NCBI GenBank assembly: GCA_937873715.1
Contig: CALMYJ010000013.1
Span: forward strand, 124,001 to 188,000
Direction: 5' to 3'
Length of the DNA: 64,000 bases
Source of the DNA: an uncultured Chitinophagaceae bacterium
Lineage (GTDB): Bacteria; Bacteroidota; Bacteroidia; Chitinophagales; Chitinophagaceae
Position 1 is the stretch's first letter. Each line of letters starts with the position of its first letter. The notes beneath the pieces were generated by a model. That model ran no database searches. It was not told the origin of the DNA and saw only the letters and a list, made by a program, of their open reading frames with translations. Positions 18,937-58,741 of this stretch are shown here, piece after piece. The translations under genes were made by a program, and so were the position numbers.

Positions 18937-19572
18937 ATGGCAAAAAATAAAAAACCCAAACATATTGCAGTAGCGGGCAATATAGGTGCAGGTAAAACAA
19001 CACTTACCGAAATGCTGAGCAAGCATTATAAATGGATACCCCAGTTTGAGGACGTGGATCATAATCCTTACCTGAATGATTTTTATGAAGACATGCCCCG
19101 CTGGAGTTTTAACCTTCAAATATTTTTTTTAAACAGCAGGCTTAACCAGTTGCTTGAAATACACCGTGGTACCGAAACGGTAATACAGGACAGAACGATT
19201 TATGAAGATGCCAACATTTTTGCGCCCAACCTGCATGATATGGGCCTGATGGGCAAACGGGATTTTGATAACTACTACCGTTTTTTTGAAACATTAAAAT
19301 CGATGGTGCAGCCACCTGATTTACTGATTTACCTGAAAGCATCGGTACCCACACTGGTGGCACAAATACAAAAAAGGGGCAGGGAGTACGAAGAAAATAT
19401 CAGGCTCGATTACCTGAAAAAATTAAATGACTACTACAATAATTTTATTGATAATTATAAAGAGGGGCCGCTGTTAATTGTGGATGCCGATACCAATAAA
19501 TTTGCCGAAAATGAAGAACACCTCGGGCAGGTGATTAGTAAAATAGATTCAACACTTTTTGGATTATTTTAA
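18937..19572 (+). CDS. Deoxynucleoside kinase (dCK/dGK family)
   Basis: Phosphorylates deoxynucleosides (probably deoxyadenosine or deoxyguanosine) in the salvage pathway. The 211-residue protein has a P-loop GNIGAGKTT (residues 14-22), the conserved substrate-pocket FEDVDHNPYLNDFYEDMPRWSFNLQIFFL, and QDRTIYEDANIF, equivalent to the DRS/ERS motif. The lid region RGREYEENIRLDYL supplies arginines for phosphate binding. Length and motif order match bacterial dNK enzymes such as those of Bacillus and Bacteroidota. Exact substrate preference cannot be read from the sequence. It converges on a NarL-type regulator 37 bp away. Confidence 0.93.
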   Translation: MAKNKKPKHIAVAGNIGAGKTTLTEMLSKHYKWIPQFEDVDHNPYLNDFYEDMPRWSFNLQIFFLNSRLNQLLEIHRGTETVIQDRTIYEDANIFAPNLHDMGLMGKRDFDNYYRFFETLKSMVQPPDLLIYLKASVPTLVAQIQKRGREYEENIRLDYLKKLNDYYNNFIDNYKEGPLLIVDADTNKFAENEEHLGQVISKIDSTLFGLF

Positions 19573-31234: not shown

Positions 31235-34200
31235 CTACCTGATTAAGGTAATAGTACCTTTCTTTAAAAATTTATATCCTGTTTCGCATCTAATTTGTGC
31301 AAAATAAGTGTAAGTGCCTTGTGCCGCAGGTTTGCCTTTGTAATCACCCCTCCAGCCATTGCTGTTATCACCGGTGTAAAAATTCTTTTTCTCAAATACC
31401 AGGTTGCCCAGCCGGTCGTAAATCTGCATCCATTCTATATTGGATATTCCTCTTAACATGAACACATCATTTAACCCGTCCCCATTGGGGGTAAATGCCG
31501 TTGGGGCCATGATGCTTCCTGCACCACAAAGAAACTTAACAGTAATCTCATCGGAGTTTTTACAGCCATTGTTATCTGTTACAATCAGTTTATAAGTTGT
31601 AATGGCTGCCGGTGTTGAAACGGGGTTGGCGCAGGTACTGCAATCCAGGTAAGTGGCTGGCTCCCACTGCCAGCCTGATATATTGCTGCTGCCGGTAGTA
31701 TTTAATTGTACGCTGCCGCCAAACAAAACCCCTTCGATGGGTGCAATTTTTACCTGCGGTAATGGCAATGCAGATACAATTACCGAAGCCGTATCTGTAA
31801 AGCAGCCGGAAATATCTGTACCTTTTACCGTATAGGTGTACAAGCCCGGCGTTGCGTTTATTGCAGTTGGACTGGCAATAGTGGTATTGCTTAATCCTGC
31901 GGTATTACCCGTCCATACATAACTGTGCATACCGCTGGCGTTTAATTGTACCGGGGTGTTGATGCAGGCGGGCTGTACCGGCGCCACCTGTATAAAGGAG
32001 GGCTGAATCACTTTTACAAAAACAGAATCTTTAGTGGTACAGCCCTGCTGCGAAATGGCTGTTACACTGTAAGTAATATCCTGGCCGGGTGATATATTCA
32101 GCGCAGCAGTATTGGTGGTACTATTGATGCCTTCGGCTGCATCCCACACATAAGTGCTGCCGCCCGAGGCGGTTAGTGTAATAGCGGTACCCCTGCAAAC
32201 CTGTGGACTGGCTGGCGAAAATTGTACAACAGGCCTGGGATGAATCACAATGTTTTCATTCAGTTCAGGCGAAGCCTGGCAGCCCGTGATATCTGTAATA
32301 ATCAGCAAAGGCTTGTATATCCCCGGCGTATTGTATAAGTGTGAAATGCTGCTGTCACTCAGTTGCATCAGAGTGCCATCGCCAAAATCCCAGGTGTACG
32401 AAACTGCATTTTTTGAGCTGGCTGTAAACCGTACTTCTTCATTTGCACATATTGTACTCCTGTTGGCTGTAACAATGGCTTCGGGGCCTTTAATACTTAC
32501 CGTATCGCTATGCGTTTTCAGCAGCCCATCAGGCCCATACACATGCAAGGTAATGGTGTAGATGCCGGGCTTGTAATAAATATGACTGGGGTTCTCCAGG
32601 TTTTCGGCAGATGTACCATCACCAAAATCCCAGAATATACTGCTGTAATTGATAGAATTATTTTGCATCACAGCCAGTAATGGCGGGCAGTTGTTGGGCG
32701 ACAGGTAAAATTTACTAAGGGTAAAACCGGTTCTGAAATTTTCCACGGCTATGCTGCGGATGGCTGTATCACTGCAGCCCGTGAGTGGGTCGGTTGCAAT
32801 AAGGGATACCTTATAATTGCCGGGATTACTGTATGTAAATTCAGGCGATTCTTCGGTAGAAACACCCCTGTCGCCAAATGCCCACTGGTATTTTACCGTT
32901 GAGCTGGTAAAAATATCGCTATTGTTGTTGAAACTAACAGGCAAACTTATGTAAGCCACTGCCGGAGCGATAAAATCGGCTTTAGGGCCATTAACAACGA
33001 TAGTAGCCGGTGCAGATAACGATTCGCATCCCGAACTGTCTTTTACCGCAAGTTGTACCGTATAGTTTCCAGGTGTCGAATAGGTGTAAGAAAATGTTTT
33101 GCTGTTGAGTATGGTTGAAATATTACCATCTCCTGTAATCCATGAGCGTTGTTCCACCTGCATATTGGCAGTGGTGGTGTCGGTAAAAATTACCTGCTCG
33201 TTCATGCAAATATTGTTGTCGGTTATATTGAAGCCGGGATGGTTCCACTTAATGGTATACGACAGCATGTTAGAGGTGTCGGCACAAACAGAGCCGGTAG
33301 GCTGAAGGATAAATCTTATGCCTCTTTTTTCCTTATCCAGTCCCCGTATCGATCCGTTTAGGTATGTTGTCCAGTTGGTGGCAGTGCTGTCGTGATTATG
33401 AAAAGTGCCGGTAAATTCGGTGCCATCTTCATATTCAATCTTTGTGATGTTGTAATGGTTTTGCCCGGGTAATGCTGATGGGTTTGGCTCAAGCCCGGTT
33501 AAGCTAAATTCAAGTTGCTCATTACCACAAAGTGTAGTTTGTACAGCAGTCAATACAGGTTTTTGTTTGCTCAGTACATTAATGGTGATTGTATCGGTAA
33601 CTACACATTCCGGGTTGCTTGCGGTAAGCATAACCCTGTACCTGCCCGATTTGGCATAAGTGTGTGTGATGTTCACCGGGTTGGCATTTGTAGTAAGTGT
33701 AGTGCCATCCCCAAAGTTCCACAAAAGCTGGTTGGTGCCCGATGCGGTACTGGAAAAAGATATATGATTTCGACTGCCTTCACAACTGCCTTGTGTTTTT
33801 GAAATTTTAGCGAAAGGCGGTAGTACCGTGATATATTTTTGCCTTGTAAGTGTATCGGCACAGCCATTAATTGTACTTACAATGAGTGATACGGTAAAAC
33901 TATCTGCAAGCTGGTAGTTGTGCTGCACCTCGTTGCCGGCTGTTATTTTGATGCCATCACCAAAGTTCCAGTGATAAGATACGCCTTCTTGCGGCAGGGC
34001 ACTAAATGTTACTGCAGTGTTGCCGCATACCGTTGTTTTGTTGGCTGTAAAACTGGCTGTAGGGATTTCAGTTACCACAAATGGGGTGCTGGTTGCCGTG
34101 CCGGTGCAGCCGTTGTAGGTAGTATAACGGAGCAGCACGGTATTCATACCGGGGTTACTGAATAAATGGATTGGGGTAGAATCGGTAGAAAATGTTCCAT

Positions 34201-35653
34201 CACCAAAATCCCAATTGTATTGCACAATACTGTCTACATTAATACTGGTGCTAAACTGAATGTTATATGGCCCGCAATTAGAAGGAATACCTTTTGAGGT
34301 AATCCTTACCGTTGGTCTTATAATTTCCAGTCTTTTTGAAGCTGCATTCCTGCAGCCGTTGGCAGCTTCTCCTGTAAGCCAGATGGTATAAATACCGTCG
34401 GTTTTATATTCATAGCCTGCTTTTTGTGTTGATGCATTGATTCTTAAATTAGGATACTCAAAGTACCAGGTCCATCTTACAGTTTCCGCCGAAGTATCTT
34501 CTACAGATACCTGTAGCGGTGCACCGCATACGCCGTTCTGGTTTAAAATAAATTGATCAACTACGGGAGTCTTTTTTACAACAATACTTCGGGTTAAAGA
34601 ATCGGGGCAGCCTTCAAAATTATTTACCAGTTTAATGCTGTATGTGCCTGTATCAGGAAAGCGATGGCTGAGTGAGGTGGTGGAATCAATAAAAATATTA
34701 TTAATATACCAGCCGGGTTTTGTAATTAGAGGGTTGCTGGTATTATTGAACAAATGGGGCGAATTGCTGCAGATATTAAAGGGTACGCTAAAGTTGGTTC
34801 TAAAGTTGGCTGCATTAATATAATTGGGTATGCTGCTAAAGGCGCTGCAGCCCTCACTGCTGTTTACGGTAAGGGAAACAGTATAGCTGCCCGTTCTGCT
34901 ATAAGAATGGGATGGATTGTTTTGGGTAGACCTTCCCCCGTCACCAAAATCCCATTGATACGTTAATGTTCCGGGGCCGCTGCTCAAATTGTTGAAGGTT
35001 GCCAAATCTGTTAGCTTGCAGATATTGGTTTTCTCCGCTGCAAAATTTGCCGTGATGGCAGGCAGTACTTTTATTCTTTCATCTTTAGTAAATGTTTTGG
35101 TACAGCCATAACTATTAGTAACAGTTAAGCTTACCGCCATATCTGCACTGCTGGTATATCGATGGGTTACAGGAGCAGCAGTTTCCTGCTTTGTATTACC
35201 ATCGCCAAAGTCCCAGTAATAATTTTTGATTGTTCCGCTTCCGGCTGCAGCATTCGCCATAAAGTTCACCTCAAGCGGCAGGCATCCTTTGTATACCGAA
35301 GCACTAAAATCCACAACGGGATTAGCATACACGGTAATATTTTTTGAATGTACAGATACCTGTGCGCCATCCCTAACCGTAAGTGTAATAGTATACGTAC
35401 CCTCATTGGTATATACAGCGCCGGGGTTTACTAGGGTAGAGGTATTGCCATTGCCAAAATTCCAACTATAGGTGCTGGTAGCCGATGTGCCTGTGCTTGT
35501 ATTGGTAAAATTGATGGCAACCGGCGAACAGCCACCGGTATTGCTTGGGATAAAATCAGCTATTAATTGACTGTACAGCGAAGTGCTGTAGCATAGTAAT
35601 ACACACAGCAATACACAAAAGGAACCATATTTTTTAGCGGTTTTCAACTGCAT
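31235..35653 (-). CDS. PKD-repeat surface protein with T9SS type B (gliding-associated) C-terminus
   Basis: A 1472-residue exported protein. It has a signal peptide (KKYGSFCVLLCVLLCYSTSLYSQ). About ten PKD domains follow, recognised by repeating YxWxFGDG motifs (for example YSWNFGNGNTS, YYWDFGDGNTK, YQWDFGDGGRS, YTWDFGDGTLM), with Ig-like blocks near the C-terminus. The last ~90 residues (APTAFTPNGDGLNDVF, IYDRLGNLVFE, GWRGDYKGKPAAQGTYTY) are the gliding-motility-associated/type B sorting domain exported by the type IX system. It is probably an adhesin or structural surface protein. It diverges from the histidine operon leader. Confidence 0.93.
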   Translation of the reverse strand: MQLKTAKKYGSFCVLLCVLLCYSTSLYSQLIADFIPSNTGGCSPVAINFTNTSTGTSATSTYSWNFGNGNTSTLVNPGAVYTNEGTYTITLTVRDGAQVSVHSKNITVYANPVVDFSASVYKGCLPLEVNFMANAAAGSGTIKNYYWDFGDGNTKQETAAPVTHRYTSSADMAVSLTVTNSYGCTKTFTKDERIKVLPAITANFAAEKTNICKLTDLATFNNLSSGPGTLTYQWDFGDGGRSTQNNPSHSYSRTGSYTVSLTVNSSEGCSAFSSIPNYINAANFRTNFSVPFNICSNSPHLFNNTSNPLITKPGWYINNIFIDSTTSLSHRFPDTGTYSIKLVNNFEGCPDSLTRSIVVKKTPVVDQFILNQNGVCGAPLQVSVEDTSAETVRWTWYFEYPNLRINASTQKAGYEYKTDGIYTIWLTGEAANGCRNAASKRLEIIRPTVRITSKGIPSNCGPYNIQFSTSINVDSIVQYNWDFGDGTFSTDSTPIHLFSNPGMNTVLLRYTTYNGCTGTATSTPFVVTEIPTASFTANKTTVCGNTAVTFSALPQEGVSYHWNFGDGIKITAGNEVQHNYQLADSFTVSLIVSTINGCADTLTRQKYITVLPPFAKISKTQGSCEGSRNHISFSSTASGTNQLLWNFGDGTTLTTNANPVNITHTYAKSGRYRVMLTASNPECVVTDTITINVLSKQKPVLTAVQTTLCGNEQLEFSLTGLEPNPSALPGQNHYNITKIEYEDGTEFTGTFHNHDSTATNWTTYLNGSIRGLDKEKRGIRFILQPTGSVCADTSNMLSYTIKWNHPGFNITDNNICMNEQVIFTDTTTANMQVEQRSWITGDGNISTILNSKTFSYTYSTPGNYTVQLAVKDSSGCESLSAPATIVVNGPKADFIAPAVAYISLPVSFNNNSDIFTSSTVKYQWAFGDRGVSTEESPEFTYSNPGNYKVSLIATDPLTGCSDTAIRSIAVENFRTGFTLSKFYLSPNNCPPLLAVMQNNSINYSSIFWDFGDGTSAENLENPSHIYYKPGIYTITLHVYGPDGLLKTHSDTVSIKGPEAIVTANRSTICANEEVRFTASSKNAVSYTWDFGDGTLMQLSDSSISHLYNTPGIYKPLLIITDITGCQASPELNENIVIHPRPVVQFSPASPQVCRGTAITLTASGGSTYVWDAAEGINSTTNTAALNISPGQDITYSVTAISQQGCTTKDSVFVKVIQPSFIQVAPVQPACINTPVQLNASGMHSYVWTGNTAGLSNTTIASPTAINATPGLYTYTVKGTDISGCFTDTASVIVSALPLPQVKIAPIEGVLFGGSVQLNTTGSSNISGWQWEPATYLDCSTCANPVSTPAAITTYKLIVTDNNGCKNSDEITVKFLCGAGSIMAPTAFTPNGDGLNDVFMLRGISNIEWMQIYDRLGNLVFEKKNFYTGDNSNGWRGDYKGKPAAQGTYTYFAQIRCETGYKFLKKGTITLIR

Positions 35654-35827
35654 AAATAAGGTTAAGCACAGTGATAGGCGTACTGGCTTTTTACGGATAT
35701 CAGCTTATAAAAATACCGAATATTATTGTACAACAGAGGATTTCAGCCATTTATATGCTGCTTTTAAAGCCGTTTCATCAAACTAAATTTTGCCTGTTTT
35801 ATATTTTCCCTTTTCTTTGCGCCATAA

Positions 35828-35878
35828 ATGAAACAGATTACTCACATACACCATCATCATTTTCTTACCAACGGGTAA
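35828..35878 (+). CDS. hisL: Histidine operon leader peptide (attenuation)
   Basis: A 16-codon ORF encoding MKQITHIHHHHFLTNG, with five His codons in a six-codon stretch (35843-35860: CAC ATA CAC CAT CAT CAT). It ends at TAA 35876-35878, 123 bp before hisG. The run of codons for the operon's own end product, its position, and the hairpins around it identify a transcription-attenuation leader: the speed of translation through the His codons reports His-tRNA charging. The peptide itself probably has no function after translation. Its length and logic match the enteric HisL, which I know from family knowledge, although the sequences are unrelated. Confidence 0.92.
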   Translation: MKQITHIHHHHFLTNG

Positions 35879-35945
35879 GCTGTGCTGATTTGTATGTACA
35901 CCATATCTTTTCACAAAGGGCTTACCCAACAGGTAGGCCCTTTTT
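35864..35945 (+). promoter_or_regulatory. his operon attenuator with alternative hairpins
   Basis: There are four segments. Segment 1 is CTTACC (35864-35869) and pairs with GGTAAG (35874-35879). Segment 2 is GGGTAAGC (35873-35880) and pairs with GCTTACCC (35920-35927), part of segment 3. Segment 3 (35915-35926) pairs with segment 4 (35932-35943) as the terminator. A ribosome stalled on the His codons (to 35860) would cover segment 1 and allow 2:3, the antiterminator. A ribosome reaching the stop codon at 35876 would mask segment 2 and allow 3:4, the terminator. The pairings are read from the sequence; the mechanism is inferred. Confidence 0.88.
35915..35945 (+). terminator. Attenuator terminator hairpin of the his operon
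   Basis: A 12-bp stem (35915-35926 with 35932-35943, one T-G wobble) has a 5-nt loop and is followed by T residues to 35945. It lies 56 bp upstream of hisG and in front of the whole operon, so it must be bypassed for expression. Confidence 0.9.
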
Positions 35946-36001: not shown

Positions 36002-36853
36002 ATGCTTAAAGTAGCAATTCAAAAATCGGGCAGGCTGCACGACGATTCGGTAAAACTGCTTAAAGATTGCGGTATCGATATCAATAACGGCAATAAGCAG
36101 CTTAAAGCCGTTTGCAGCAATTTCCCTCTCGAAATCTTTTACCTCCGGGATGATGATATTCCCCAATACGTATTCGACGGCGTGGCCGACCTGGGTATAG
36201 TGGGCGAAAATGTGGTGAAAGAAAAAAATAAATCAGTGCAAACGGTTAGCCGCCTCGGCTTTAGCAAATGCCGCCTCAGTATTGCCGTGCCCAAAGCGAT
36301 GGAGTATGCCGGTGTGCAGGATTTGGATGGCCTTAAAATAGCGACCAGCTACCCGGTTATTTTACAACAGTACCTTATCGATAATAAAGTTAGTGCCGAG
36401 ATACATGAAATCAGCGGCTCTGTTGAAATTGCACCAGGCATTGGTTTGGCTGATGCTATATGCGATTTGGTGAGCAGTGGCAGCACGCTGTTTACCAACG
36501 GACTTAAAGAAGTGGCGCAGGTACTTAAATCCGAAGCCCTGCTGGTGGCCGATAAAAATTTAAGTGCTGTAAAACAGGCCATACTCGATAAGCTGATGCT
36601 GCGTATCAATGCCGTGCAAAAAGCAAAACGCAACAAGTATATTTTGATGAATGCACCCAATCACCAGCTTCAAAATATTGTAGCGCTGCTGCCGGGTATG
36701 AAAAGCCCTACCATAGTACCACTGGCCGAAGCCGGCTGGAGCAGTGTACAAACAGTAGTGGCCGAAAACGATTTTTGGGAAGTGATTGAAAAACTAAAAG
36801 CCTGCGAAGCCGAAGGCATACTCGTAATGCCTATAGAACAAATGATTATTTAG
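36002..36853 (+). CDS. hisG: ATP phosphoribosyltransferase (long form)
   Basis: First enzyme of histidine synthesis, condensing ATP and PRPP to phosphoribosyl-ATP. At 283 residues it is the long, HisZ-independent form. It has an N-terminal catalytic part (MLKVAIQKSGRLHDDSVKLLKDCGI, GVADLGIVGEN, and the PRPP-binding loop with IADAICDLVSSGSTLFTNGLKE-like sequence). The C-terminal ~80 residues form the ACT-like regulatory domain (PTIVPLAEAGWSSVQTVV), which usually binds histidine for feedback inhibition. It is the first gene of the operon, 56 bp after the attenuator terminator. Both transcriptional attenuation and feedback inhibition are therefore expected. Confidence 0.98.
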   Translation: MLKVAIQKSGRLHDDSVKLLKDCGIDINNGNKQLKAVCSNFPLEIFYLRDDDIPQYVFDGVADLGIVGENVVKEKNKSVQTVSRLGFSKCRLSIAVPKAMEYAGVQDLDGLKIATSYPVILQQYLIDNKVSAEIHEISGSVEIAPGIGLADAICDLVSSGSTLFTNGLKEVAQVLKSEALLVADKNLSAVKQAILDKLMLRINAVQKAKRNKYILMNAPNHQLQNIVALLPGMKSPTIVPLAEAGWSSVQTVVAENDFWEVIEKLKACEAEGILVMPIEQMII

Positions 36854-36872
36854 CCGCATAGTATATATACGC

Positions 36873-38162
36873 ATGAGTAAATTATGGATTAACCCCACAA
36901 AAGCAGAATGGCCCTTAATCGTTCAGCGGCCGGTAATAGACAGTGCCCCGCTGGAAGCAACCGTATCGGCTATACTGAAGGATGTACAACAACAGGGCGA
37001 TGCTGCCGTAAAAAAATATGCACTGCAATTTGATAAAGTGCATTTGCAGGATTTGAAAGTAACCGATGCCGAAATGCAGGAAGCTGCAGCAGCAGTAAGC
37101 GATGCATTGAAAGCGGCTATCAGCATTGCTAAAAATAATATTACACTTTTTCACCAGCGCCAAAAAGACGAAGTAACCCGGATAGAAACCATGCCCGGTG
37201 TGCACTGCTGGCGCAAGCCGGTAGCCATACAAAAAGTTGGGCTATACATTCCCGGTGGTACGGCTCCCTTATTTTCTACCCTTTTAATGCTGGGCATACC
37301 GGCGGTGCTGGCGGGCTGTAAAGAAATTGTGGTATGCACACCCTGCGATACAAATGGAAAAGTAAACCCTGTAGTATTGTATGTTGCCCGGCAAATTGGG
37401 TTAAAAAATATTTACAAAGCAGGCGGTGTACAAGCCATTGCAGCTATGGCATACGGTACCCAAAGCATACCGGCCGTATATAAAATTTTTGGCCCCGGCA
37501 ACCAGTATGTAACCTGTGCCAAGCAACTGGTAAATAAAGAGGGCATTGCTATTGATATGCCTGCAGGCCCCAGTGAAGTAGCCGTGTATGCCGACGAAAC
37601 CTGTAATCCTGCATTTGTAGCTGCCGACCTGCTCAGCCAGGCCGAGCATGGTGCCGATAGCCAGGTATTACTGGTAGCCGCCACAGCACAATTGGTGAAC
37701 CTTATACAGGCCGAAGTGTCAGCCCAGCTTGATGTGCTGCCGAGAAAAGCAGCAGCCATTCAGGCGCTGGATAAAAGTAATTATGTGGTGATGCCCGATG
37801 TTGATGCGGCTTTTAAACTGCTTAATGAATATGCGGCCGAACACCTTATCATCGCATCCGATGATGCCGCCGCCCTTGCTGAAAAAGTGGTAAATGCCGG
37901 CAGTGTTTTTTTAGGACATTACTCTCCCGAAAGTGTAGGAGACTATGCATCGGGCACCAACCATACTTTGCCCACCAATGGCTTTGCAAAAGCATACAGT
38001 GGCGTATCGCTGGATAGTTTTTTTAAAAAAATTACTTTTCAGCAGCTTAGTGCACAGGGGCTGCAGCATATTGCAGCAGCAGTGGAGCAAATGGCTGCAG
38101 CCGAAGGACTGGAGGCTCATAAAAATGCGGTAACTATACGTTTGAACAACTTAGTAAAATAA
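36873..38162 (+). CDS. hisD: Histidinol dehydrogenase
   Basis: Zinc enzyme catalysing the last two steps, L-histidinol to L-histidine with 2 NAD+. The 429 residues contain the conserved core PVAIQKVGLYIPGGTAPLFSTLLMLGIPA, GPGNQYVTCAKQLV and MPAGPSEVAVYAD. The catalytic Glu-His pair is in NEYAAEHL, and the C-terminal segment is YASGTNHTLPTNGFAKAYSGVSLDSFFK. The start is 19 bp after hisG and the stop is 2 bp before hisC. No abnormality is seen. Confidence 0.98.
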   Translation: MSKLWINPTKAEWPLIVQRPVIDSAPLEATVSAILKDVQQQGDAAVKKYALQFDKVHLQDLKVTDAEMQEAAAAVSDALKAAISIAKNNITLFHQRQKDEVTRIETMPGVHCWRKPVAIQKVGLYIPGGTAPLFSTLLMLGIPAVLAGCKEIVVCTPCDTNGKVNPVVLYVARQIGLKNIYKAGGVQAIAAMAYGTQSIPAVYKIFGPGNQYVTCAKQLVNKEGIAIDMPAGPSEVAVYADETCNPAFVAADLLSQAEHGADSQVLLVAATAQLVNLIQAEVSAQLDVLPRKAAAIQALDKSNYVVMPDVDAAFKLLNEYAAEHLIIASDDAAALAEKVVNAGSVFLGHYSPESVGDYASGTNHTLPTNGFAKAYSGVSLDSFFKKITFQQLSAQGLQHIAAAVEQMAAAEGLEAHKNAVTIRLNNLVK

Positions 38163-38164
38163 TA

Positions 38165-39217
38165 ATGGAATTTAGTTTAGATACACTGGTACGGGATAAT
38201 ATTAAAAACCTAAAGCCTTATTCCTCGGCCCGGCATGAGTTTACAGGCAAGGCATCCGTGTTTCTCGATGCCAACGAAAACGCTTATGGATCCCCGTTAG
38301 CCGAAAAGTTCAATCGCTATCCTGATCCCCTGCAATGGCAGCTTAAATTTCAACTGGCCCGTATCAAAGGGGTGCCGGCCGAAAACATTTTTATCGGTAA
38401 CGGCAGCGATGAAGTGATCGATTTGGCCTTTAGGATATTTTGTAACCCGGGTACTGATAACATCATCATTTGTCCGCCTACTTACGGTATGTACGAAGTG
38501 AGTGCCGATATTAATGATGTAGCTATTAAAAAGGTAAACCTCACTGACGATTTCCAGTTAGATGTGGAAGGTATTTTAAATGCCGTGGATGAGCATACAA
38601 AGCTCATCTTTATCTGCTCGCCGAATAACCCAACGGGCAACAGTATGCGCCGGGAGGATGTGGAAATACTGCTGAATAATTTTAACGGTATTATACTCAT
38701 TGATGAAGCGTATATCAATTATTCCAAACAAAAATCATTTATACAGGAACTTACCGAGTACCCTAATTTGATTGTAATGCAAACGCTGTCTAAAGCCTGG
38801 GGGCTGGCAGCGCTGCGGCTGGGCCTTTGTTATGCTTCTATGGATATAATCGACATTTTTAATAAAGTAAAACCGCCTTATAATGTTAATGAGGCATCGC
38901 AACAGTTAGGGCTTGAAGCTTTGCAGGATACAGATACCGTAAATAGCTGGATAAAAGAAGTGGTAACAGAAAGAGAAAACCTGGTGCAGACGCTGCGGCA
39001 GTTTTCATTTGTTGAAAATATTTATCCCAGCGATGCTAATTTTATCCTTGTAAAAGTGCAGGATGCCAATGCACTGTACAATTATCTTTCGGCCAATGAG
39101 GTTATTGTACGCAACCGGCATAAAGATGTAAACTGCAGCAACTGCCTTCGCTTTACCATTGGTACGCCTGAAGAAAACAGCATTGTACTTAACCTGCTAA
39201 AACAATACCAGTCTTGA
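38165..39217 (+). CDS. hisC: Histidinol-phosphate aminotransferase
   Basis: PLP-dependent class I/II aminotransferase converting imidazole acetol phosphate to histidinol phosphate with glutamate. It has 350 residues. The N-terminal [10 protein letters not shown] is typical of HisC. PLP contacts include [17 protein letters not shown] and the Asp in LIDEAY; the Schiff-base lysine is Lys210 in [14 protein letters not shown]. The C-terminal arginine motif [12 protein letters not shown] binds substrate phosphate. The gene follows hisD by 2 bp, and its TGA stop overlaps the TTG start of hisB by 4 bp, indicating coupled translation. Confidence 0.98.
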
Positions 39218-40356
39218 AAAAAATATTATTCATCGACCGTGATGGCACACTGATAAAAGAGGCGCCACCAACTTACCAGCTCGATTCGTTTGATAAACTG
39301 GAATTTTATCCCGGCATGTTTACCTATATGCGTAAAATTGCCGAAGAACTGGATTACGAACTGGTAATGGTTACCAACCAGGATGGCCTTGGTACAGCCA
39401 GTTTTCCGGAAGATACATTTTGGCCGGTGCATAATTTTGTGATGAAAAGTCTTGCCAATGAAAACATACAGTTTAGCGAAGTATGTATCGACAGGACATT
39501 TGCTAAAGACAATGCCCCCACCCGTAAGCCGGCTACCGGCATGCTTACAAAATATATCAACAATCCCGGTTACGATTTGGCAGGCTCTTTTGTAATTGGC
39601 GATCGCATTACAGATATACAACTGGCACAAAACCTGGGCTGCAAAGGCATTTGGATGAATGAAGATGCAGCGCTTGGGGCAACAGAAATTAACAGCAGCA
39701 TTGAAGATTTAAGGAATACCGTAGTGGCGCTTGAAACGACTGACTGGAAAAAGATTTACGAATTTTTAAAACTGCCGCCACGCAAAGTTTTGCACCAGCG
39801 CAATACCAATGAAACAAAAATTTCCATAGAAATTAACCTGGATGGTACCGGTAAATCCACCATCAAAACAGGGCTTGGCTTTTTTGACCACATGCTCGAC
39901 CAGGTAGCCCGGCACGGCAACGTGGATTTAAGTATTCAGAGTGATGGCGATTTGCATATTGATGAGCACCATACTATTGAAGATACCGGCATAGCCCTCG
40001 GCGAAGCCATTGCCAAAGCCTTGGGCGATAAACGGGGTATTGAGCGTTATGCTTTTGTATTGCCGATGGATGAATGCCTGGCGCAGGTAGCCCTCGATTT
40101 TGGCGGCCGCAACTGGATAGTGTGGGAGGCAGAATTTAAAAGAGAAAAAATTGGGGAAATGCCTACAGAAATGTTCTTTCACTTTTTTAAATCATTCAGC
40201 GATGCGGCAAAATGTAATCTCAATATTAAAGTGGAAGGCGATAACGAACACCATAAAATAGAAGCCATTTTTAAAGCATTTGCCAAATGTATTAAGCAGG
40301 CTGTAAAAAGAGATATTCAAAACAATGCATTGCCTTCTACCAAAGGGATGTTGTAA
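39214..40356 (+). CDS. hisB: Bifunctional histidinol-phosphatase / imidazoleglycerol-phosphate dehydratase
   Basis: A fusion of a HAD phosphatase (residues about 1-170) and IGP dehydratase (about 185-380), steps 8 and 6 of the pathway. The HAD nucleophile and acid are Asp8 and Asp10 (FIDRDGT), with [14 protein letters not shown] near the end of that domain. The dehydratase shows [32 protein letters not shown] and the final STKGML. The start is TTG at 39214, inside the hisC stop, and no closer ATG exists. The zinc-binding CxH...CxC loop of the enteric phosphatase is absent; the region reads [16 protein letters not shown]. Confidence 0.96.
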
Positions 40357-40369
40357 TGTAGCTGAACTA

Positions 40370-40975
40370 ATGATAGCAATTATAAAATATAATGCCGGTA
40401 ATGTACAGAGTGTGCAGTATGCACTGCAAAGGCTCGGCGTACAGTCTGTAGTTACGGATGATGCCGCTGTGATTACCAGTGCCGATAAAGTAGTTTTTCC
40501 CGGCGTTGGGCATGCTGCACCGGCCATGCAATACCTTAAAGAGAGGCAACTGGATAAACTGATTGTTTCGCTGCAGCAGCCGGTACTGGGTATTTGCCTC
40601 GGGTTGCAGTTGATGTGTACACATTCAGAAGAGGGAGATACAGCCTGCCTCGGCATTTTTGATGAGCAGGTGCGGCGTTTTAACCCCGAGCCCGTGCAGG
40701 GCGGCAATACTGTTTTTAAAGTGCCGCAAATTGGTTGGAACACTATTTACGATTATGCATCGGTGTTATTTAGCAACCTGCCCAACCCGGCCTATGTGTA
40801 TGCGGTGCATAGTTATTATGCGGCATTGGGCAGCGATACGGCAGCTACCACCAATTATATACAGCCATATAGTGCAGCACTGCAAAAAAATAATTTTTAT
40901 GCCGTGCAGTTTCATCCCGAAAAATCGGGTGCCGCTGGCGAAACCATTCTTAAAAATTTTATAAGCATAAAATGA
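40370..40975 (+). CDS. hisH: Imidazole glycerol phosphate synthase, glutaminase subunit
   Basis: Class I glutamine amidotransferase subunit (201 residues) that delivers ammonia to HisF. Evidence: N-terminal IIKYNAGNVQSVQYAL, catalytic Cys in LGICLGLQLM, and the His-Glu pair in VQFHPEKS. ATG 40370 gives the family start MIAIIKYNAGN; the open frame begins earlier but that extension overlaps hisB. The gene begins 13 bp after hisB and overlaps hisA by 4 bp (ATGA). It acts together with hisF, two genes downstream. Confidence 0.97.
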   Translation: MIAIIKYNAGNVQSVQYALQRLGVQSVVTDDAAVITSADKVVFPGVGHAAPAMQYLKERQLDKLIVSLQQPVLGICLGLQLMCTHSEEGDTACLGIFDEQVRRFNPEPVQGGNTVFKVPQIGWNTIYDYASVLFSNLPNPAYVYAVHSYYAALGSDTAATTNYIQPYSAALQKNNFYAVQFHPEKSGAAGETILKNFISIK

Positions 40976-41691
40976 CCATCATACCTGCAATAGATATTAT
41001 CGGCGGCAAATGTGTGCGGCTTACAAAAGGCGATTATGCACAACAAAAAGTGTACAACGAACATCCGCTAGAAGTGGCAAAGGAGTTTGAAGATGCCGGT
41101 ATTACCCGCCTGCACATGGTTGACCTGGATGGCGCCAAAGCAGGCAATATTATCAATTTAAAAGTGCTGGAAACAGTAGCCACACAAACAAATCTTATCA
41201 TTGATTTTGGCGGGGGTATTAAAAAGCTTACTGATGTGGAAGCGGTATTTAATGCCGGTGCAGCCATTGCCACTATCGGCAGCCTTGCCGTAAAACAGCC
41301 CGAACTGCTGGAAGAATGGATACTGGAGTTTGGAGCATCAAAGTTTTTAATTGGCGCCGATGTGCTGGACGAAAAAGTAAAAATCAGCGGCTGGCTCGAG
41401 GATGGCGGTATTAACCTTTTTGATTTTATCGGTAAAATGATAGCTCTTGGCGTTACCAATATTTTTTGTACCGATATTGCTAAAGACGGCGCTATGCAAG
41501 GCCCTTCTGTAAACCTGTATAAAAGAATTTTAACGGAGCATCCCGAAATTAAATTAATTGCAAGCGGAGGTGTAAGCAAATTTGAAGATGTGTTGCTTTT
41601 AAAGGAAACCGGCTGCGCCGGTGCCATTATCGGTAAAGCTATTTATGAAGGCACTATCACGTTACAACAACTTTCAGCCATCAACCAATAA
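40972..41691 (+). CDS. hisA: ProFAR isomerase (HisA)
   Basis: TIM-barrel isomerase (239 residues) opening the ribose of ProFAR in step 4. The N-terminal catalytic Asp lies in [20 protein letters not shown]. The half-barrel phosphate sites are FGGGIKK and SGGVSKF, and the second catalytic Asp is in [14 protein letters not shown]. It overlaps the hisH stop by 4 bp and is followed by hisF after 11 bp. HisA and HisF are ancient duplicates, and both show the repeated half-barrel pattern here. Confidence 0.98.
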
Positions 41692-41702
41692 ATTTTTTCA
41701 AC

Positions 41703-42458
41703 TTGCTTTGTAAACGAATTATACCCTGCCTTGATATCAAAGACGGACGTACGGTAAAAGGCATCAACTTTGAAAGTATAAGAGATGCCGGCGACCCGGT
41801 GGAACTGGCTAAACTGTATTCCGAACAGGGAGCAGATGAATTGGTATTCCTGGATATTACGGCCACAGTGGAAAAAAGAAAAACCCTGGTGGAACTGGTA
41901 AAGCGTATTGCTGCCAATATCAACATACCCTTTACCGTTGGCGGAGGCATCAGTGCGGTGGAAAATGTGGAAGAGTTATTACAAAACGGCGCCGATAAAG
42001 TTTCTGTAAATACCGCAGCATTTAAAAATCCTCAACTGGTACAGGATTTAAGCAATGCCTTTGGCAGCCAGTGTGTGGTGCTGGCTATTGATACCAAAAA
42101 AGAAGCAGATGGTAACTGGTATGTGTATCTCAGTGGTGGCCGTACCAAAACCGATACGCTAACCATCGATTGGGCCCGCCAGGCAGTAGCGCTTGGTGCC
42201 GGTGAGATATTGCTTACTTCTATGAATAATGATGGTACAAAGGCTGGCTTTGCCCTCGATATTACCGGCCAGTTGGCTAACAGCTTACCCGTTCCTGTTA
42301 TTGCTTCCGGTGGTGCAGGTACCATGCAGCATTTTAAAGATGTATTTGAGCAGGCTAATGCCGATGCCGCACTGGCAGCCAGCATTTTTCATTATAAGGA
42401 AATTGGTATACCGGACTTAAAAAAATACCTGCAGCCATTTGTAACAATCCGCCGGTAA
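41703..42458 (+). CDS. hisF: Imidazole glycerol phosphate synthase, cyclase subunit
   Basis: TIM-barrel cyclase (251 residues) that with HisH makes imidazole glycerol phosphate and AICAR. Evidence: [20 protein letters not shown] (catalytic Asp11), [22 protein letters not shown] (second catalytic Asp) and [11 protein letters not shown]. The start is TTG at 41703; no ATG or GTG gives the conserved N-terminus. A 54-codon membrane ORF starts 3 bp after its stop, before hisIE. Confidence 0.97.
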
Positions 42459-42461
42459 ATC

Positions 42462-42626
42462 ATGATACAACTGGCTATTATATGCATCATTCTTGCCATT
42501 GCCGTATTTGCCTGGATGAAAAACAAAAACGACAACAGGCGTATTGAAAGGCATAACCGCATGCTGGAAAAGCAGCAGGAATTGCTGGAAAGGCTAAAAA
42601 ATAAAAACGAACAACATGATAATTGA
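42462..42626 (+). CDS. Small single-TM protein embedded in the his operon
   Basis: A 54-residue ORF not matching any family I know. It starts with ATG 3 bp after hisF and its TGA (42624-42626) overlaps the hisIE start (42616) by 11 bp. Residues 2-18 (IQLAIICIILAIAVFAW) form one TM segment. A basic linker MKNKNDNRRIERHN follows, then a charged amphipathic helix/coiled coil (MLEKQQELLERLKNKNEQ). The order suggests N-out/C-in topology with a cytosolic helix. Tight spacing on both sides implies translation coupled to hisF and hisIE. It could recruit His enzymes to the membrane or only aid translational coupling; no function is shown. Confidence 0.75.
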   Translation: MIQLAIICIILAIAVFAWMKNKNDNRRIERHNRMLEKQQELLERLKNKNEQHDN

Positions 42627-43209
42627 TTTTAAAAAATACCCCGATGGTCTTGTGCCGGCTATTGTACAGGATGTAGCAACGGGCAAAGTATTGATGCTTG
42701 GCTTTATGAATGAGGCTGCTTTGGCCAAAACGCAGGAACTGCAAAAAGTTACTTTCTTCAGCCGCAGTAAAAACAGGTTGTGGACAAAAGGAGAAGAGAG
42801 TGGCAACTATCTTTTATTGCAGGAAATAAAAGTGGATTGTGATAATGATACCTTGTTGATAAAAGTTAACCCAGTTGGCCCTGTATGCCATACCGGTGCC
42901 GATACCTGCTGGGATGAAAAAAACACCAGCGATAATTTTTTACTGCAATTGGAACAGGTAATCATAAATCGAAAAAATAACCCCTCCGAAAAATCGTACA
43001 CCAGTTCGCTTTTTGCCAAAGGCATCAATAAAGTGGCCCAAAAAGTAGGTGAAGAAGCGGTGGAACTGGTAATAGAAGCAAAAGATAATAACGACGATTT
43101 GTTTAAAAACGAAGCGGCAGATTTATTGTTTCATTACCTCATTTTGCTGCAGGCCAAGGGCTTTAGCTTACAGGATATTATTAACGTGTTGAAAGAAAGG
43201 CATAAATAA
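42616..43209 (+). CDS. hisIE: Phosphoribosyl-AMP cyclohydrolase / phosphoribosyl-ATP pyrophosphatase
   Basis: Bifunctional enzyme for steps 2 and 3. The N-terminal HisI domain (about 1-105) has LMLGFMNEAAL, FFSRSKNRLWTKGEESGN and the metal-binding cysteines in VDCDNDTLL and VCHTGADTCW. The C-terminal HisE domain (about 110-197) has SYTSSLFAKGINKVAQKVGEEAVELVIEA and NEAADLLFHYLILL. The 197-residue length is normal. It is the last gene of the operon and overlaps the small membrane ORF by 11 bp. I see no terminator after it; the downstream gene is convergent. Confidence 0.98.
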   Translation: MIIDFKKYPDGLVPAIVQDVATGKVLMLGFMNEAALAKTQELQKVTFFSRSKNRLWTKGEESGNYLLLQEIKVDCDNDTLLIKVNPVGPVCHTGADTCWDEKNTSDNFLLQLEQVIINRKNNPSEKSYTSSLFAKGINKVAQKVGEEAVELVIEAKDNNDDLFKNEAADLLFHYLILLQAKGFSLQDIINVLKERHK

Positions 43210-57475: not shown

Positions 57476-58741
57476 TTATTGATACCTGCCGTATTTACGG
57501 TAGTTAAACCAAAATTCCTTGAGGGTAAAACCTATAATATACTGGGTGAATTTTTCTTTTATCTGGCTGCTGTTGGTACTACCCCTGGTACCCATTTCGA
57601 TTCCGCCATAGAGGCTGATGGCTGTGGAAAGATTTTTGCCAAAGCCTGCCGATACAGCGTAGGTATTTAAATCTTTGCCCAGTATGGTAAAATAATTTTT
57701 TTCTGCACTGGCACCAGCCTGCAGGTACCAGCTTTCTACGGAATAGCTGCCGATTTTTTTACGGTTTACATATTCTATGCCGGCCGAAATTCGGCCCGAA
57801 GGCGTGGTATAGGAGTTGTTGTATTCCACTTTTTGTTTTTGCCAGTTGCTGTACAGGGCATCAGCGCTAAGGGTAAGGTTGTTGTTAAAACTTATGGCGT
57901 AGCCAATGCCCATTTGCAGGGGCAGGGTAAAATCTTTTTTAGTTTCGGTAGTTGATTTTACACTTACACTATTGCTGAGGTATTCGGTTTCGGTATATCG
58001 TTTTATGGTAGCGGGGTTGCTGATGGTAAAGCCTAAGCGGTGTGTAACCCATGGGGATGTTTGCCAGTTGTATTGCAGGCCCGCCTGCAGTTGAAAAGCA
58101 TTCATTACAGTGTACTGCTGGCGGCTTAGTGCAACGGATAAACTTTCGCCATAATAATCGGTTGCAATATTGGCGCTGCCAAAGTAGTAGGATGAAGTAA
58201 TACCCACTGATAAGCCTTTGGTTAATTGCCGGGCATAGGAAAGGTAAACCTGGTTAATACCGCCGCTGCCATCTACCGATTTAGCCAGCGATGTGTTGCT
58301 GCTGTACACTGCCGTATTTTGCAGCAGCAGGTAATTAATGGTGCTGAATGGTTTGAGCCCCACTGCAAAGGCATTTTTTTTATTGGGCTTAAAGGCCAGG
58401 CTGATGCGCCTCACACTAAAATCTTTTGTATTAGCTGTAAATGTATCAGCAGTGGCATATTTAAAGCTGGCACTTTTGCCCCTGTTGGCTATGTCGAAGT
58501 TCATCATCCTTTCGTTAAGCGCTGTTAAGGAGGCAGGATTTGCCGTATTAATATACCAGGGGCTGCTTAGTGCAATGGAGGTGCTGCCCATACCATACCA
58601 GCGGCCAAAATCTTTTGTTTCTATATCACCTATACCGAGTATGGAATAAGGCGAAGTGGTGTTTTGTGCCATGCCTTGCTGCAGGTATAATAAGGTTAAT
58701 ACAAGTATGGCGTAATGATTTTTATTAGAGCCCAAGTACAT
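57476..58741 (-). CDS. Outer-membrane beta-barrel protein
   Basis: A 421-residue exported protein with a signal peptide (ILVLTLLYLQQGMAQ) and alternating beta strands typical of an outer-membrane barrel (for example SISLAFKPNKKNAFAVGLK, GLSVGITSSYYFGSANI, ISFNNNLTLSADALYS, FTLPLQMGIGYA). It ends in an aromatic C-terminal strand (YIIGFTLKEFWFNYRK). It resembles the barrel proteins that accompany T9SS/PorV-like systems in Bacteroidota. It is the last gene of a four-gene minus-strand operon and overlaps the DUF4270 gene by 17 bp. Function unknown. Confidence 0.85.
   Translation of the reverse strand: MYLGSNKNHYAILVLTLLYLQQGMAQNTTSPYSILGIGDIETKDFGRWYGMGSTSIALSSPWYINTANPASLTALNERMMNFDIANRGKSASFKYATADTFTANTKDFSVRRISLAFKPNKKNAFAVGLKPFSTINYLLLQNTAVYSSNTSLAKSVDGSGGINQVYLSYARQLTKGLSVGITSSYYFGSANIATDYYGESLSVALSRQQYTVMNAFQLQAGLQYNWQTSPWVTHRLGFTISNPATIKRYTETEYLSNSVSVKSTTETKKDFTLPLQMGIGYAISFNNNLTLSADALYSNWQKQKVEYNNSYTTPSGRISAGIEYVNRKKIGSYSVESWYLQAGASAEKNYFTILGKDLNTYAVSAGFGKNLSTAISLYGGIEMGTRGSTNSSQIKEKFTQYIIGFTLKEFWFNYRKYGRYQ

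Follow-up and report, generated by a model that had tools for sequence, protein, structure and literature searches.

The window, as we call the whole 64,000-nt stretch of uncultured Chitinophagaceae DNA analysed here, contains a complete his operon of eight genes, each scoring over its NCBIfam cut-off; hisG starts at 36002 and hisB is bifunctional. The upstream neighbour lies on the minus strand, which places the his promoter between 35654 and a short leader that precedes hisG. The features of the locus are as follows.

31235–35653, minus strand: upstream neighbour gene, its 5′ end at 35653
35789–35819, plus strand: predicted promoter, with a −33 TTTG (35789–35792) and a −7 type element ending in TTTG (35816–35819)
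35828–35878, plus strand: leader peptide ORF MKQITHIHHHHFLTNG, read directly (ATG 35828, TAA 35876–35878)
35864–35869, plus strand: segment 1, CTTACC, which pairs with segment 2
35873–35880, plus strand: segment 2, GGGTAAGC, whose partner is segment 1 or, in the antiterminator, segment 3
35885–35914, plus strand: spacer holding a weak inner hairpin inside the antiterminator; in relatives this stretch is structured
35915–35945, plus strand: intrinsic terminator, with arms 35915–35926 and 35932–35943, the 3′ arm being segment 4
35920–35927, plus strand: segment 3, GCTTACCC, part of the terminator 5′ arm
36002–43209, plus strand: regulated operon hisG-hisD-hisC-hisB-hisH-hisA-hisF-hisIE, assigned with NCBIfam models

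Direct reading of MKQITHIHHHHFLTNG gives five His codons (35843–35845 and 35849–35860), and the stop codon falls within segment 2. The earlier note had reported a five-His leader ORF upstream of hisG together with three alternative pairings and a 12-bp terminator; the ORF is correct base for base, and the pairings and the terminator all lie in the window sequence where the note had put them. The terminator consists of 12 pairs, a 5-nt loop and a T-run at 35941–35945, and a pattern scan recovers the identical 12 pairs. Folded in isolation it reaches −18.3 kcal/mol (z −4.44), a value matched by none of 200 shuffles. Two elements of an attenuator are thus in place, namely a His-rich short ORF preceding its own biosynthetic operon and an intrinsic terminator between that ORF and hisG.

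The pairing of a terminator with an antiterminator is common to all leaders of this general type, including riboswitches and T-boxes, and one could therefore imagine a ligand- or tRNA-binding leader that merely happens to hold His codons. We consider this extremely improbable, as the leader is only ~118 nt long and nearly half of it is ORF, which hardly leaves space for a T-box stem I or an aptamer, and no relevant Rfam family, T-box and riboswitch models included, was matched at threshold in the window or in 14 related loci.

Conservation of the His-rich ORF and of the alternative pairings

We read upstream of 80 hisG loci from other genomes and found a peptide of the H-I-H-H-H-H type ~70–330 nt before hisG in most of them. 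A short ORF with at least four His in eight codons was present in 110 of 131 hisG upstream regions as against 3 of 655 dinucleotide shuffles, the former figure not being a count of independent events because the loci are mutually related; before the divergent hisG type, none of 13 regions had such an ORF. The His-rich ORF before hisG is not due to chance. Both His codons are used (219 CAT, 75 CAC), indicating conservation at the level of the amino acid rather than of the DNA alone. Among 63 near loci the stop codon lies in segment 2 in the window and about ten others and 8–27 nt further on elsewhere, and this variable C-terminus indicates that what is preserved is the RNA with its His codons, not the peptide. 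The gap between the His run and segment 2 is 13–14 nt in most loci, a spacing that fits attenuation. Conservation of the His-rich ORF in relatives, on which the earlier note had made its reading depend, is thus borne out by the comparison, for almost every close relative and throughout the class. In one locus (L032), the last 150 nt before hisG retain an intact RNA architecture while the His run has decayed to about two His codons (IHQPHQ).

These observations also bear on the proposal that the ORF arose by chance or encodes a functional small peptide, for example a metal-binding one, with the terminator only trimming read-through. Short HHHH peptides are able to bind metal, which lends the idea some substance, but the motif is found before hisG, the peptide ends are variable, the pairings are mutually exclusive and there is no same-strand upstream gene to terminate, so that we hold this explanation to be very improbable.

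The terminator is present in all 63 near loci. We simulated a ribosome on the last His codon of each, assuming a footprint extending 14 nt ahead of the A site, and folded the RNA from the ribosome edge. The 2:3 antiterminator then formed in 61 of 63 loci by a strict criterion and in 63 by a looser one, whereas shuffling the intervening RNA left 9.3 on average, and never more than 13, of the 63; placing the ribosome at the stop codon led to the terminator in 63/63. A further element of an attenuator, an antiterminator that excludes the terminator and is freed by a stalled ribosome, is therefore also present. The energy of hairpin 1:2 is below zero in 62 of 63 loci. In most loci the full RNA, with all four segments, folds more stably as the terminator, which means that antitermination must be kinetic and take place before segment 4 is made; the antiterminators of classical attenuators likewise form before segment 4 exists.

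Compensatory pairing had been named in the earlier note as the other comparative check, and here the outcome differs between helices. In the terminator alignment, both-side changes occur in 6 of 10 pairs and 98.6% of cells are paired, with none of 500 shuffles as high. The 2:3 pairs are paired in 93.8% of cases (at most 49.5% when slid) and the 1:2 pairs in 82.6% (at most 59% when slid) across the 63 near loci, but neither covaries beyond shuffles in this near set, where the segments are nearly frozen. That they hardly vary can be attributed to each being bound to two partners, which is itself no positive proof. In one locus (L076), segments 2, 3 and 4 share the same T/A to C/G change. Distant families carry other segment 2/3 sequences that are still complementary (e.g. 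TCAAGCG/CGTTTGA and CAGGTAG/CTACCTG); in 14 of 30 loci from these families that have a terminator, the upstream pairing outdoes 95% of shuffles (each p < 0.05), and the combined p for the 30 is ~4e-11, uncorrected for relatedness. RNAalifold returned the terminator alone from the 63-sequence alignment, the expected outcome for folds that exclude one another.

Between segments 2 and 3 an inner hairpin has a mean z of −1.17 over 78 loci; since it is weak in the window itself (z +0.6), we set it aside as a working part of the model.

Predicted promoter placement and distribution of the leader

Across 31 close loci, the 45 nt leading up to the ATG contain TTTG in only two places, 6–9 nt (29 loci) and 32–37 nt (31 counts) away from it, such that the ATG begins 6–9 nt past the end of the −7 element in 29 of the 31. 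Over the larger set, 58 of 63 loci have a TTTG 3–10 nt before an in-frame start. The spacing of the two TTTG elements is as expected for the known Bacteroidota promoter, whose consensus is a −33 TTTG and a −7 TAnnTTTG (PMC7366714), the TA of the −7 element being missing in the window. By itself the promoter pattern is not rarer than chance within the window, and its support comes from its fixed position across loci. The predicted transcription start is at ~35823–35828, that is ~0–5 nt before the ATG, and the his leader would therefore be leaderless or almost so. For comparison, 5′ UTRs shorter than 10 nt make up only ~3.7% in B. thetaiotaomicron, and leaderless mRNAs 5.5% in F. psychrophilum. 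This predicted placement of the promoter next to the start codon is a detail absent from the earlier note; in family f5 the distance between promoter and ATG is larger.

We evaluated the spread of the leader in a family sample of 100 genomes, about one per genus, using a strict motif (His run, GGTRRGC, GCTTAC). It was found in 58 of 100 genomes, as against 2 of 100 for a backward-read control. Thirty matches were fetched: 28 of them precede hisG, one sits at the end of a contig and one is a chance match. A related pattern has a single match in the window's own genome. In a phylum sample, a short His-rich ORF precedes hisG in each of the 24 class members that possess the gene. In 21 of them the ORF has at least four His in eight codons (one of these, L098, being doubtful) and in three it has three His; a clear terminator is missing in about six of the 24. 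Several families from other classes also have a His-rich ORF before hisG, and in family f15, which has a divergent hisG, none was found in the phylum sample. The suggestion that such leaders have an underestimated spread in Bacteroidota is thus backed by surveys at the level of family, class and phylum.

Several leaders depart from the pattern of the window. In family f21 (L118, L121, L122, L125–L128, L130–L134 and L136) the leaders lie ~100–185 nt before hisG, ~10 of 25 residues are His, and translation would mostly start at a GTG that follows a TATCTTTG-like element by a few nt. No terminator was found before hisG in the f21 loci, and the 100 nt preceding hisG are G-poor (9%) and C-rich (25%), a composition with which Rho-dependent attenuation could operate in this family. 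Three other loci (L083, L086 and L070) may represent a further leader variant: their His-rich ORF closes with HHFHHSS, a small hairpin spans the stop codon, and a terminator of the classical kind is lacking. Two loci titled Pyrinomonadaceae, Acidobacteriota (L069 and L072), have a hisG 63–64% identical to that of the window with His-rich leaders upstream, which suggests operon transfer or a wider spread.

The f21 leaders imply that a leader may work without an intrinsic terminator, and the most serious alternative for the window is built on them: the leader ORF might act mainly via Rho or via hisG translation, the hairpin being a minor terminator. A very His-rich leader is indeed kept in f21 upstream of a G-poor, C-rich stretch, but the window and the 63 near loci all have a strong intrinsic terminator that overlaps a conserved antiterminator, and this terminator ends well before the hisG start. 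We regard such a mode of action at the window locus as improbable.

The same genome contains further candidate leaders ahead of amino-acid genes.

Contig C11, ~19438–19488: leader ORF MQQQIANTKNWWWQSV before a trpE-like gene, Trp-rich, followed by a terminator-like hairpin
Contig C5, ~352508–352585: leader ORF MKSTVTYTRFYFGYYFFSTTPGVFC before a prephenate dehydratase gene, Phe/Tyr-rich, followed by a terminator-like hairpin
Contig C26, ~57916–58011: leader ORF MKISINFRKAPLAVSKTAGTTFSTTTTR before an aspartate kinase gene, Thr-rich

Rfam gave no matches for the Trp, Phe/Tyr and Thr leaders, and no leader peptide lies directly before ilvD in this genome, although other genes may precede ilvD in its operon. 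Given these further leaders, the his leader probably belongs to a set.

Proposed mechanism and relation to known leaders

The sequence, its conservation, the alternative pairings and their spacing are shown directly, and we conclude that the element very probably controls the his operon by ribosome-mediated transcription attenuation. The transcription start, the coupling of transcription to translation and the direction of the response are parts of the model that we infer. RNA polymerase would start just upstream of the leader ATG with a ribosome trailing it. During a shortage of charged tRNA-His, the ribosome would stall on the His run, covering segment 1 and leaving segment 2 free to pair with segment 3 before segment 4 is made; no terminator would then form and hisGDCBHAF(IE) would be transcribed. 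When charged tRNA-His is plentiful, the ribosome would reach the stop codon and cover segment 2, and hairpin 1:2 may also form behind the ribosome or in the absence of translation. With segment 2 occupied in either way, 3:4 would form and transcription would end near 35945. One idea is that the polymerase may pause after hairpin 1:2.

Bacteroidota mRNAs are mostly without Shine-Dalgarno sites. A broader proposal, which we find quite possible but advance only tentatively from the sequence comparisons, is that the Bacteroidota his attenuator works on a leaderless leader ORF whose start codon is merged with the promoter, the first ribosome loading at the 5′ end as it emerges, and that His leaders of one kind may be coupled to different modes of termination in different lineages of the phylum, intrinsic here and possibly Rho-dependent in f21.

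Attenuation by a his leader peptide is textbook knowledge for enterobacteria. The enterobacterial leader (RF00514; HisL of E. coli and Salmonella) has the same short His-run peptide before hisG, alternative hairpins, an intrinsic terminator and the same logic, whereas the element in the window has only three short helices, a hairpin 1:2 that starts inside the ORF, a Bacteroidota promoter and a start codon almost at the predicted transcription start. No match to the Rfam His_leader model (RF00514) is listed for the window region or 14 related loci, which is compatible with independent evolution of the Bacteroidota his leader. The mycobacterial leaderless poly-Cys ORF attenuators are cysteine-responsive and are not known to be built on this intrinsic terminator design; they have the leader ORF at the transcript 5′ end, an arrangement predicted for the present element too.

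The earlier note took this type of leader to be best documented in Proteobacteria and its presence here to suggest independent evolution or an underestimated spread. Clues for leader-peptide attenuation at amino-acid operons have been described in F. psychrophilum, together with a structured 5′ element at hisG that is conserved in Flavobacteriaceae and has no Rfam hits (PMC9723704); it concerns the same phylum and the same gene as the window element. Family f5, Flavobacteria-like by sequence, has segments CTCAAGCG/CGTTTGAG and a promoter further from the ATG than in the window. The Bacteroid-trp RNA motif (RF01692) is a predicted cis-regulatory RNA of Bacteroidetes tied to trp genes (PMC2864571), hence to another amino acid, and has no match in the window. 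In bacilli, a short ORF with a stretch of His codons precedes a predicted terminator at hisZ/hisS (PMC2965389), a likeness by description that involves other genes in another phylum. sORFs reminiscent of leader peptides are reported in B. thetaiotaomicron (PMC7366714), and a his-gene study of the superphylum mentions attenuation, among the passages found, for enterobacteria only (PMC8305728). Given the Flavobacterium, Bacteroidetes trp and Firmicutes reports, the presence of the leader here is less surprising than had been implied. The element is a well-supported member of a kind already known; it is weakly documented in Bacteroidota, and its breadth, architecture and promoter placement are the new additions.

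What had been a guess about a single locus becomes a testable, putatively His-responsive element at the scale of a phylum. Its motif is specific enough to annotate and has no counterpart in Rfam, and little is known of how these bacteria regulate their amino-acid genes. The fusion of promoter and ATG, if mapped, would reveal a coupling of transcription to translation in which attenuation needs no Shine-Dalgarno site, and the change of terminator type between lineages offers a route to asking how attenuators evolve around a conserved leader peptide.
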